Positions 1 through 57,808 of a stretch of 64,000 nucleotides of DNA are shown here, in pieces (position 1 is the stretch's first letter; every line of letters starts with the position of its first letter). A program made the translations under genes and the position numbers. The stretch covers positions 558,001 through 622,000 of the forward strand of contig NZ_CP049366.1 of assembly GCF_014058425.1 (NCBI RefSeq). The letters run 5' to 3'. The notes beneath the pieces are model-generated. The model was not told the origin of the DNA and made no database searches. It was given only the letters and a program-made list of their open reading frames with translations. Source of the DNA: Companilactobacillus pabuli. GTDB taxonomy: Bacteria; Bacillota; Bacilli; Lactobacillales; Lactobacillaceae.

Positions 1-69
<69 letters not shown>

Positions 70-77
70 CTATATCT

Positions 78-165
78 GGAGAAGTACTCAAGTGGCTGAA
101 GAGGCGCCCCTGCTAAGGGTGTAGGTCGCGTAAGCGGCGCGAGGGTTCAAATCCCTCCTTCTCCG
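78..165 (+). tRNA. tRNA-Ser (GCT)
   Basis: Acceptor GGAGAAG pairs with CTTCTCC. The anticodon is GCT, a long class II variable arm is present, and the discriminator is G. Confidence 0.95.
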
Positions 166-172
166 TTAATAT

Positions 173-244
173 GACCCGTTGGTCAAGTGGTTAAGACACC
201 GCCCTTTCACGGCGGTAACATGAGTTCAAATCTCGTACGGGTCA
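173..244 (+). tRNA. tRNA-Glu (TTC)
   Basis: Acceptor GACCCGT pairs with ACGGGTC. The anticodon is TTC and the discriminator is A. Confidence 0.95.
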
Positions 245-295
245 TTGATGCATTAGCATCAAGAATTAATTAAATAGCATTACGTATTAAGCAAT

Positions 296-385
296 GGAGG
301 ATTACCCAAGTCCGGCTTAAGGGAACGGTCTTGAAAACCGTCAGGTCGCGAAAGCGGCGCGTGGGTTCGAATCCCACATCCTCCT
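296..385 (+). tRNA. tRNA-Ser (TGA)
   Basis: Acceptor GGAGGAT pairs with ATCCTCC. The anticodon is TGA with a long variable arm. The base at the discriminator position is T, whereas the other serine tRNA in this cluster has G. Confidence 0.94.
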
Positions 386-414
386 TAGTGGGTAGCATGT
401 GATATTTTTATTAT

Positions 415-488
<74 letters not shown>

Positions 489-511
489 TTTGTTTTGAAA
501 AAATTAAATTT

Positions 512-585
512 GGTTCCTTGGTCTAGTTGGTTAGGACGCCTGCCTGTCACGCAGGAGATCGCGGGTTCGATTCCCGCAGGGACCG
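512..585 (+). tRNA. tRNA-Asp (GTC)
   Basis: Acceptor GGTTCCT pairs with AGGGACC (one G-T pair). The anticodon is GTC and the discriminator is G. Confidence 0.95.
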
Positions 586-590
586 TTAAT

Positions 591-663
591 GGCTCGGTAG
601 CTCAGTTGGTAGAGCAATGGATTGAAGCTCCATGTGTCGGCGGTTCGATTCCGTCCCGCGCCA
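591..663 (+). tRNA. tRNA-Phe (GAA)
   Basis: The anticodon stem ATGGA/TCCAT encloses GAA. Acceptor GGCTCGG faces CCGCGCC with one T-C mismatch at pair 4-69; otherwise the cloverleaf is normal. Confidence 0.94.
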
Positions 664-667
664 TTTT

Positions 668-750
668 GGAGGGGTAGCGAAGTCTGGCTAAACGCGGCGG
701 ACTGTAAATCCGCTCCTTCGGGTTCGGTGGTTCGAATCCACTCCCCTCCA
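668..750 (+). tRNA. tRNA-Tyr (GTA)
   Basis: Acceptor GGAGGGG pairs with CCCCTCC. The anticodon is GTA, the variable arm is long (class II), and the discriminator is A. Confidence 0.95.
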
Positions 751-754
751 TATT

Positions 755-825
755 AGGGATATAGTTTAAAGGTAGAACTACGGTCTCCAAAACCGTCGGT
801 GTGGGTTCAATTCCTACTATCCCTG
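755..825 (+). tRNA. tRNA-Trp (CCA)
   Basis: Acceptor AGGGATA pairs with TATCCCT. The anticodon is CCA and the discriminator is G. Confidence 0.95.
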
Positions 826-842
826 TTTCTACCTTTTATCAT

Positions 843-916
843 GGCGGTATTGGTGAAGTGGTTAACACACCGGTTTGTGGCACCGGCACACGTGGGTTCG
901 ACTCCCACATACCGCC
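843..916 (+). tRNA. tRNA-His (GTG)
   Basis: The anticodon is GTG. The extra G at -1 faces discriminator C, the standard bacterial histidine identity pair. Confidence 0.95.
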
Positions 917-922
917 CTTTAT

Positions 923-994
923 TGGGTTATAGCCAAGCGGTAAGGCAACGGACTTTGACTCCGTCATGCGCTGGTTCGAATCCAGCTAACCCAA
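923..994 (+). tRNA. tRNA-Gln (TTG)
   Basis: Acceptor TGGGTTA pairs with TAACCCA. The anticodon is TTG and the discriminator is A. Confidence 0.95.
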
Positions 995-1014
995 TTGCTG
1001 TAAAAAAAGAATAT

Positions 1015-1085
<71 letters not shown>

Positions 1086-1119
1086 TTGGTTATGCTTAAG
1101 TAATCAGGCATAGAAATAT

Positions 1120-1203
1120 GCCGGTGTGGCGGAATTGGCAGACGCGCAGGATTCAAAATCCTGTTCCCACTAGGGAGTATCGGTTCGACCCCGATCACCG
1201 GTA
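1120..1203 (+). tRNA. tRNA-Leu (CAA)
   Basis: Acceptor GCCGGTG faces CACCGGT with a G-T first pair. The anticodon is CAA, the variable arm is long, and the discriminator is A. It is the last tRNA of the cluster. Confidence 0.95.
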
Positions 1204-38040: not shown

Positions 38041-38361
38041 TTAACTTCCAGAAGTGATTTTGATACCAATGATACTAATTAGTAATAAGGCTACGAAGAC
38101 CCAAGTTAATGGAGATAGTTTATCGCCAAAGATTATTACTCCAGCAATAATCGAACCAACGGCTCCAATTCCGGTCCAAATAGGATAGGCCAAACTCATC
38201 GGCATTCTCTTAATAGCGATTGACAAGAAGAACATACTCAAAGCCAAGCCGATAATTGTGTAAATGGTAAAGCTGATTTTAGTAAAACCGTGACTCAATT
38301 TCATCGTGGTTGCCCAAACGACCTCAAAAAGTCCGGCGATAATTAAATAGATCCAATGCAT
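38041..38361 (-). CDS. SMR exporter, Gdx/SugE type (guanidinium)
   Basis: 106 aa, four hydrophobic helices, typical SMR size. Glu-13 (GLFEVVWATTMKLSHGFTK) is the essential proton/substrate-coupled carboxylate. The W-A-x-x-M-K-x-S-x-G-F pattern after it matches the Gdx (SugE) group that exports guanidinium, and not the polyaromatic EmrE group. The leader contains an intrinsic terminator preceded by a hairpin, as in riboswitch-controlled genes (38373-38468). It is a single SMR gene, so probably a homodimer. Substrate by family; not shown here. Confidence 0.85.
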   Translation of the reverse strand: MHWIYLIIAGLFEVVWATTMKLSHGFTKISFTIYTIIGLALSMFFLSIAIKRMPMSLAYPIWTGIGAVGSIIAGVIIFGDKLSPLTWVFVALLLISIIGIKITSGS

Positions 38362-38372
38362 AATATTTCTCC

Positions 38373-38468
38373 AAAAAAATAAGTATCCCTAATAATTCCT
38401 TCTTTGGCCTAACGGAATTATTAAGAATACTTGATTAAGTGACACCCGGCGGTGTTTATTAACTTCAA
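38373..38468 (-). promoter_or_regulatory. Candidate guanidine riboswitch with terminator
   Basis: Minus-strand leader of about 100 bases. Hairpin 1: AACACC-GCCG-GGTGT (38441-38455). Hairpin 2 is an intrinsic terminator: AAGTATtcttAATAATTCC (38432-38414) pairs with GGAATTATTAgggATACTT (38399-38381), then T7 (38379-38373), directly followed by the gene's GGAGA site. The 14-base terminator loop contains GGC, which can pair with GCC of the first loop. Architecture and the Gdx gene suggest a guanidine riboswitch, closest to class IV (mepA type); class assignment is from memory. Confidence 0.6.
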
Positions 38469-38474
38469 GGAAAT

Positions 38475-38503
38475 ATTTTAGCAAATAGAAAAAAGGTTGG
38501 CAA
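38475..38503 (-). promoter_or_regulatory. Promoter of the SMR leader
   Basis: On the minus strand: TTGCCA, 17 bases, TAAAAT. It ends just before the divergent GNAT start at 38506. Confidence 0.7.
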
Positions 38504-38505
38504 GT

Positions 38506-38925
38506 ATGATTCGTAAAATGAAAGATGCAGAATTGGAAAAAGTCAGTCAGATTTGGCTTGATAGTAATTTGGAAGCACATGATTTTATTGGTAAGGATTT
38601 CTGGTTTGATAATTATTCAGTGGTTAAAAAACAATTCAAAACAGCTGAAATTTATGTCTATGCTGAACAGGAAGTTAGAGGTTTTGTTGGTTTACAAGAG
38701 AATTATATTGCTGGAATTTTTGTCGATAAAAAATATCGCAATCAAGGTATCGGAAAAAGATTGTTAGATTTTTTAAAGAAAAATCATCAACAATTGTCGT
38801 TAGATGTTTATGACAAAAATATTCTTGCCAAACAATTTTATGAAAGAAATGGTTTTGAGTTTTCTATCCATTCAGTCGAAGAGAAAACTGGTGAAAAAGA
38901 ATCATGGTTAGTTTGGAAAAAATGA
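38506..38925 (+). CDS. GNAT-family N-acetyltransferase
   Basis: 139 aa cytoplasmic acetyltransferase of the RimI/YjgM size class. The acetyl-CoA loop reads KKYRNQGIGKRLLDFL (about 75-90), and KQFYERNGFEF is the C-terminal GNAT motif. The ATG at 38506 follows AAAAGG; an in-frame TTG at 38497 is less likely. It is divergent from the Gdx gene, whose promoter lies immediately before this start. The substrate is unknown. Confidence 0.85.
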   Translation: MIRKMKDAELEKVSQIWLDSNLEAHDFIGKDFWFDNYSVVKKQFKTAEIYVYAEQEVRGFVGLQENYIAGIFVDKKYRNQGIGKRLLDFLKKNHQQLSLDVYDKNILAKQFYERNGFEFSIHSVEEKTGEKESWLVWKK

Positions 38926-50213: not shown

Positions 50214-50216
50214 TTA

Positions 50217-50578
50217 TGGAGGTGAGGGGAATTGAACCCCTGTCCAAGCATAATGCTATGCAAGCCTCTACACTCATAGTCGTATCATTTGAAGTTTCGC
50301 CATCATGAACGCCATACGACCCGGCTCACCACAATGACTATCCCGATGATCTCTTTTTAACTATTCAGGATGCACAGTTAAACGTAGCCCAATAATTTTG
50401 AGACCCATTTCCAACCCTTGGACGAAGTTAGAATGGATCACGCTTAGACTGTTTTTAGGCAGCTAATGCGTAGTTATTATTATTTTTTGCAGTTATAATA
50501 AACTGTGCGTTTTAAAGGGACGCAAGGCCCTAAGTGCAGCCTGCACGCTACTACACATGTCGAATCCAGAACACCCCC
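50217..50578 (-). ncRNA. ssrA: Transfer-messenger RNA (tmRNA)
   Basis: 362 nt. The mature ends form a tRNA-like acceptor: 5' GGGGGTG pairs with 3' CACCTCC plus A, with a normal T arm (GGTTCAA). CCA is not encoded. The tag reading frame is 50490-50455: GCA resume codon to TAA, encoding AKNNNNYALAA (after the alanine carried by tmRNA itself). The tag ends in ALAA, the ClpXP degradation signal. It rescues stalled ribosomes with SmpB. A promoter lies at 50596-50624. Confidence 0.95.
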
Positions 50579-56847: not shown

Positions 56848-57537
56848 ATGGCAGATTTAGTTAATAAATTTTTACCAAACGTCGTCGCCAATTGGGAAGG
56901 TGACAATGGTTTCGTAGTTGCAATTTGGCAAACATTATATATGACTTTTGTCAGTGCCTTATTTGCTGGAATCATCGGAATTATCTTAGGAATTTTACTA
57001 GTTGTCACAGCAGAAGATGGTATCACACCACATAAAGCTTTCTATACTTGCTTAGACAAACTAGTTAACCTATTCAGATCAATTCCTTTCATTATCTTAC
57101 TAGCTGTTATTGGACCATTTACTAAGCTAGTTGTTGGACAAACAATTGGACCTACTGGAGCTTTAGTTCCGTTAGTCGTAGGTACTGCACCATTCTTTGC
57201 CAGACAAGTGCAATTAGCTTTAGTTGAAGTTGATCCTGGTGTTATCGAAGCCGCTGAAGCAATCGGACTTTCACCAATGAAGATCATCTTCCGAGTTTAT
57301 TTACGTGAAGGACTTCCAGAATTAATCCGTTCTGGTACTCTAACAATTATCAGTTTGATTGGATTAACTGCCATGGCTGGTGCCGTTGGTGGTGGTGGTC
57401 TAGGTAACATGGCCATTTCCGTTGGTTATCAACGATTTGAAAATGATGTTACTATCGTATCTATGTTATTCATCCTAGTCCTTGTTTTTGTAATTCAAGG
57501 AATCGGTGATTTCGCAGTACGTAAATTAGAACATTAA
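56848..57537 (+). CDS. metI: Methionine ABC transporter permease
   Basis: 229 aa BPD-type permease with about five membrane helices. The cytoplasmic coupling loop EAAEAIGLSPMKIIFRV (EAA motif) contacts MetN. It forms a homodimer in related systems. It is the last gene before T-box 2; no terminator other than that T-box follows. Confidence 0.95.
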   Translation: MADLVNKFLPNVVANWEGDNGFVVAIWQTLYMTFVSALFAGIIGIILGILLVVTAEDGITPHKAFYTCLDKLVNLFRSIPFIILLAVIGPFTKLVVGQTIGPTGALVPLVVGTAPFFARQVQLALVEVDPGVIEAAEAIGLSPMKIIFRVYLREGLPELIRSGTLTIISLIGLTAMAGAVGGGGLGNMAISVGYQRFENDVTIVSMLFILVLVFVIQGIGDFAVRKLEH

Positions 57538-57544
57538 TAACAAA

Positions 57545-57808
57545 ATGAACGAAAAAGTAGTCTATTTACCACAATTTGTTCAGAAAGTCTCGGTAGCTGT
57601 GAAGAGATCAAATTAATAGATGAAAAATGACTCGTGATTGGCATTCCCGAATAATCAAGGAATGATGGCTAGTACCCATTAAAATACTGACATGTGCAAT
57701 ACATGTTGTTGAGAAAAGTAAGTGTGAATTTACTTTTGAAATAGAATGGTACCACGCCAAATAGCGTTTCTATCTAAGGGATGACCTTTGATAGGAGCGC
57801 TTTTTTAG
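57545..57808 (+). ncRNA. T-box leader 2, methionine specifier, inside the locus
   Basis: Stem I: ACGA pairs with TCGT and TCTATT with AATAGA; the specifier loop TGAAAAATGAC holds ATG at 57627-57629. The T-box AGAATGGTACCACGCC is at 57743-57757. Terminator: GCG-TTTCTATC pairs with GATAGGAGCGC, then T6 (to 57807). It controls metQ2 and metQ3. It begins eight bases after metI with no obvious promoter of its own. Confidence 0.9.

Follow-up and report, generated by a model that had tools for sequence, protein, structure and literature searches.

A probable guanidine-IV (mepA/GGAM-1) riboswitch before a Gdx-type exporter gene of Companilactobacillus

The leader of a Gdx/SugE-type SMR gene on the minus strand of the window, as the whole 64,000-nucleotide stretch analysed, from the food-type lactic acid bacterium Companilactobacillus pabuli, is called here, is very probably a guanidine-IV (mepA/GGAM-1) riboswitch that switches on a guanidinium exporter of Companilactobacillus. 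Judged from its sequence, it is an unannotated new member of the guanidine-IV class, with a presumed response to guanidine, and no new class. The assignment is based on the anatomy of the leader, its conservation and covariation, and the gene context; guanidine as the ligand and the ON behaviour are taken from published members of the class, by analogy with which the window RNA would behave in the same way. An earlier note, made from the letters alone, had proposed a transcription-ON guanidine riboswitch of class IV, and this proposal is now supported by the gene context, the loop nucleotides, covariation, and a covariance model (R3) built without leaders of the window's genus. A likely regulator is thereby assigned to the guanidinium exporter of Companilactobacillus; a full-text literature search found no paper joining guanidine, riboswitch and Companilactobacillus.

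All parts of the arrangement read in the earlier note, namely a promoter, a leader of about 100 bases, an intrinsic terminator and the ribosome site of the gdx gene, are present on the minus strand (Table 1). The promoter has an extended -10 TG and matches at 10 of 12 positions. A scan by site number gave 6 promoter-like sites in that kilobase versus 5.3 expected from shuffles, i.e., the chance level, so the promoter is supported not by scan counts but by the recurrence of the TTGCCA-type pair (TTGCCA, spacer of 16-18, TAnnnT) in 18 of 30 same-genus leaders (the best 30 of 52). The P2 loop bases G38409, G38408 and C38407 are complementary to GCC of the P1 loop, forming a GCC/GGC kissing interaction in which the variable pair, G38450-C38407, is G-C. 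The segment 38370-38473 is predicted to fold at -30.2 kcal/mol vs -17.2 (sd 2.7) for 200 dinucleotide shuffles (z -4.75; 0/200 as low). A simple terminator scan with a loop range of 3-8 did not list P2, the loop of which has 14 bases. With its long, nearly self-complementary stem, the leader is also matched weakly on the other strand by the covariance models described below (window 38364-38440, plus strand, 30.2 bits; 0.0039 in the own genome).

Table 1. Features of the gdx leader and gene, in window positions.
Feature	Position	Strand	Description or basis
Promoter	38475..38503	-	TTGCCA 38503-38498, 17-base spacer, TAAAAT 38480-38475
Hairpin P1, ACACC-GCCG-GGTGT	38442..38455	-	Sequence, folding, conservation in relatives, covariation
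P1 loop G38450 C38449 C38448, 5' half of the kissing pair	within 38442..38455	-	
Linker from P1 to the terminator stem, 9 bases	38433..38441	-	Read from sequence
Terminator hairpin P2	38381..38432	-	38432-38414 pairs with 38399-38381, 19 positions per side
P2 loop GUUAGGCCAAAGAA, 14 bases	38400..38413	-	GGC 38409-38407 inside
Terminator U-tract, 7 U	38373..38379	-	Read from sequence
Shine-Dalgarno-like GGAG	38369..38372	-	Read from sequence
gdx start codon ATG	38361-38359	-	Read from sequence
Gdx/SugE-type SMR gene, 106 aa, regulated gene	38041..38361	-	Pfam, NCBIfam and structure matches

The product of the SMR gene matches PF00893 with 98.3 bits, and its best NCBIfam model is SugE (99.1 bits, below the cut-off of 126). 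Its top solved-structure matches are 8vxu and 6wk5, at about 1e-27, the latter of which we take to be Gdx-Clo, while chains of EmrE match at about 1e-8. On these similarities the gene is termed Gdx-type; a search within one SMR review yielded no Gdx signature residues, and no published signature is claimed. The nearest named gene among the matches listed, from C. formosensis, is 98% identical. A divergent GNAT acetyltransferase gene (window 38506-38925, plus strand) begins 3 bases away from the gdx -35 box, so that its transcript must originate either across from the riboswitch or farther off. A relative occurs in the fetched flank of 23 of the 30 same-genus loci (best 30 of 52) and of 13 of 80 named loci (best 80 of the matches listed).

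An SMR match at E<=0.001 was found in 52 of 60 related genomes, and the best 30 of these 52 loci, all from Companilactobacillus according to named records and including the window's own, constitute the same-genus set. In each of these 30 Gdx leaders (again the best 30 of 52) P1 with a GCC(G or A) loop, GGC within the P2 loop, and a terminator are present, which bears out the expectation that the two loops would be conserved in related lactobacilli; the pattern for both loops occurs only once in the own genome. Three covariance models were grown in succession from the window's own relatives (R1, then R2, then R3), the family boundary being that drawn in this analysis. Within the order, R1, trained on the 30 same-genus leaders, matches 62 of 395 genomes; R2, trained on a wider leader set, has matches in 11 of 398 genomes at class level, in 20 of 398 at phylum level, and in 18 of 147 from one family. 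R3 was trained on 41 leaders, all ACC/GGU and none from the window's genus; against the own genome it finds the window leader with 71.6 bits (E 2.9e-12) as its sole match at E<=0.001, and it matches 22 of 398 phylum genomes, the own genome counted. The models have one sense place in the own genome, and among the best 80 of the named Gdx loci listed, sense matches at E<=0.01 were obtained for 63 with R3 and 64 with R2.

Genes downstream of the related leaders include those for SMR/Gdx, MATE, PnuC-type and GNAT proteins. Several other associations are worth mentioning. Short-loop leaders with a 12-base P2 loop starting UAGGCC and a GCC/GGC kissing interaction (L044, L047, L049, L052, L054, L055, L057 and L065, at about 1501-1587) come from one genus (g19) and precede an SMR gene of a different type, the product of which in L047 is 34% identical to that of the window; in genome G059 two tandem SMR genes follow such a leader. 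The class-IV-like ACC/GGU leaders of genus g5 (L063, L068, L097-L101 and L104, the last with AGU) precede a B3/4-domain protein (Pfam on L097) and no transporter. An SfLAP-type membrane protein is encoded downstream of the leader in L050 (1580-2314, plus strand), and in L092/L197, near 1105-1515, the downstream ORF resembles pyruvate phosphate dikinase by eye.

The structure of R3 encodes only P1 and P2, so that pairing between the loops can be tested separately, though the alignment was fitted to P1 and P2. The covariation alignment comprises 97 distinct leaders from chosen sources, and since many rows are near relatives the counts do not represent events. Standard pairs occupy 95.8% of its cells vs 69.6% in shuffles, sliding the partners leaves no more than 46.5%, and in the stems 642 cells are changed on both sides vs 175 in shuffles. 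The kissing pairs alone are paired in 99.3% of cases, and the variable one is A-U in 53, G-C in 37 and G-U in 6 of the 96 readable leaders, without mismatch and with one gap. The covariation score of the kissing pairs, 0.319 vs 0.169 (sd 0.016), was reached in none of 500 shuffles; the ability of the P1 loop GCCG and the terminator-loop GGC to kiss, postulated from complementarity in the earlier note, is supported by covariation of this pairing in 97 leaders. The number of varied kissing pairs and that of pair types did not exceed shuffles (452 and 500 of 500), because the other two kissing pairs are C-G in 96 of 97 leaders. A wider column-based table of 143 rows (133 distinct), which leaves out L072 and, among named loci, 8 antisense rows, has at pair 29-72 A-U 69, G-C 51, G-U 9, C-G 1, A-C 2 and gap 1; by eye, GCC/GGC is read in the gap row L154 and in the A-C rows L088 and L089, where P1 is shifted, giving a corrected G-C count of 54 and no mismatch. 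The best Gdx tree (59 rows) needs at least 5 changes of kissing state, but the number required by its starred branches is just 1 (G-C) or 2 (A-U), and many independent switches are not claimed.

Rfam 15 reported no guanidine family for the window leader, either at the gathering score or, within 38330-38530, at E up to 10; guanidine-I, -II and -III in particular had no match in the window (gathering score) or in 38330-38530 (E up to 10). Matches in the leader were all sub-threshold and mostly to microRNA-type hairpins, the best reaching 21.4 bits where its family needs 70. The lack of a covariance-model hit, named in the earlier note as a refuting outcome, is literally the case with Rfam 15, but it carries little force: Rfam 15 likewise gave nothing for 6 ACC/GGU-leader loci, it placed none of 7 named loci with class-IV-like leaders in a guanidine family, and with these 13 similar leaders equally missed, its silence was set aside as evidence against class IV. 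Of 13 Gdx loci lacking a class-IV-like leader, 5 gave a guanidine-I and 4 a guanidine-II match with Rfam, so in sister species the same Gdx gene carries guanidine-I or -II instead at 9 of these 13 loci, a point in favour of the guanidine-IV reading. Since these elements are detected before Gdx genes, the tool works, and Rfam 15 is either without class IV or has a model that does not reach these leaders. The absence of matches for the window and for similar leaders was the reason for building the covariance models here; as none of the class-IV-like leaders tested was reported, automatic annotation with Rfam 15 tends to miss them. Elsewhere in the window Rfam identified a T-box leader (57536-57774, plus strand), a tmRNA gene (50214-50578, minus strand) and 13 tRNA matches (1-1203, plus strand).

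In the mechanism proposed, the whole P2 stem would form in the absence of guanidine and RNA polymerase would stop at the U-tract, whereas guanidine bound during RNA synthesis would let the P1 loop GCC pair with the P2 loop GGC. With a 9-base linker and a stem of 19 positions, the rigid kissing pair would then sterically prevent closure of outer P2, and the polymerase would read through into gdx. With a complete terminator the linker has 9 bases, which shrink to 5 when the stem is extended into the U-tract. By a rough estimate, the fully stretched linker is shorter than the stacked P1-kiss-P2 rod in 84 of 98 leaders; the remaining 14 do not fit this geometry, and for some of them the stem reader stops at bulges. 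The geometry agrees with, and is no proof of, the steric idea and the folding model as given in excerpts of PMC7736828 and PMC11611296, respectively. A more speculative thought, which we regard as possible and rather unlikely, is that the A-U to G-C exchange beside the ligand site is not neutral: the GCC/GGC leaders would form a natural sub-class whose stronger loop-loop pair shifts the guanidine turn-on level, or the discrimination among substituted guanidines, and lineages would have passed from one state to the other via G-U. A-U, G-U and G-C forms of one kissing pair occur naturally, in many cases ahead of the same gene, and could serve as ready-made test RNAs for the effect of loop-loop strength on the threshold of an ON switch, the mechanism of which is still debated.

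The leader might be read as a plain intrinsic terminator or attenuator free of ligand control, its loop complementarity being incidental, given that a strong terminator dominates the predicted fold and that complementarity over three bases says little by itself; since, however, there is hardly any variation in the loop bases (A and the first G in 98 of 98 leaders) while the stems change by compensation, and the loop-loop pair covaries, this reading is hardly credible. A guanidine-IV architecture serving another ligand, as proposed for the orphan variant Gd4v, or for example a substituted guanidinium, is likewise very improbable. It draws on the two loop positions, the counterparts of U67 and G62, at which the window differs from the validated L. 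lactis RNA, and on the precedent of Gd4v that close variants of guanidine-IV can lose the guanidine response (Lenkeit et al. 2022, PMC9788692, excerpts). Gd4v shares with the window the two-hairpin terminator-type architecture and the pseudoknot, but in the excerpted text of that paper it never precedes sugE, in its clearest subset the terminator always bears an additional hairpin, and a conserved G is absent, whereas the window has a plain 14-base P2 loop without an extra hairpin and a SugE/Gdx-type SMR gene directly downstream. Two further points speak against another ligand: of the 59 leaders in the Gdx tree, 30 have the G-C kissing pair and precede Gdx-like genes, and the kissing loop was preserved in the A29G/U72C double mutant (PMC11611296, excerpts). 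A Gd4v-like leader was itself encountered in L070 (1501-1593, minus strand), with a hairpin inside the terminator loop, CCC/GGG kissing and a GNAT gene downstream. The preferred reading remains a guanidine-IV riboswitch.

As described in excerpts of Lenkeit et al. 2020 (PMC7736828), GGAM-1 is found mostly upstream of sugE, combines a pseudoknot with a terminator, acts as an ON switch, and binds guanidine with a KD of about 0.2 mM; excerpts of several sources, this paper among them, name sugE/Gdx, MATE, PnuC and GNAT as gene contexts of guanidine-IV, and those of a 2025 review (PMC12186494) and of motif surveys (PMC8632094, PMC11109978) describe the class alike. The window shares with it the two hairpins, the loop-loop pseudoknot, a second hairpin that is the intrinsic terminator, the needed G residues of the second loop, and the SugE/Gdx-type gene downstream. 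In the L. lactis RNA G66C, U67A and G72C abolish the response and G62C weakens it, the mutant still responding, and U67 and G62 are stated to be 97% and 90% conserved (PMC7736828, excerpts); in that of C. botulinum the kissing loop comprises A29-U72 and C30-G71, conservation of G71 and G77 is 97%, and the kissing loop is restored when A29G is combined with U72C (eLife study, PMC11611296, excerpts). The alignment used here is tied to the published numbering by L. taiwanensis (L107) and Lactococcus-like loci, which have G, U, G, U and G at the spacing of 62, 63, 66, 67 and 72. By this alignment G38408 is the counterpart of G66 (L. lactis) or G71 (C. botulinum) and G38402 that of G72 or G77, with the spacing of 6 kept, and G38408, C38407 and G38402 have the same spacing as positions 71, 72 and 77 of C. 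botulinum; G occupies the G66 and G72 places in 97 and 96 of 98 leaders, the window included. At the U67 place the window has C38407 with the compensating G38450, and the 98 leaders have U in 59 and C in 38 (U 17 and C 9 in 26 phylum matches outside the own genome). The P2 loop base U38412, at the ungapped counterpart of G62, departs from the conservation in print, in common with 85 of 98 leaders that have U vs 6 that have G; since the published mutant still responded and most leaders here have U, G62 was not taken as defining. The published 97% (U67) and 90% (G62) were not reproduced in the 98 leaders, a mismatch that may stem from sampling, alignment or acceptance into the published set. The window thus differs from the described RNAs in that its kissing pair 29-72 is G-C, not A-U, a natural form of A29G/U72C, and while U67A breaks the kissing pair, the G-C of the window keeps it. 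Guanidine-I (RF00442) and guanidine-II (RF01068), neither reported in the window, share with it the gene kind and, from print, the ligand, and are different RNAs.
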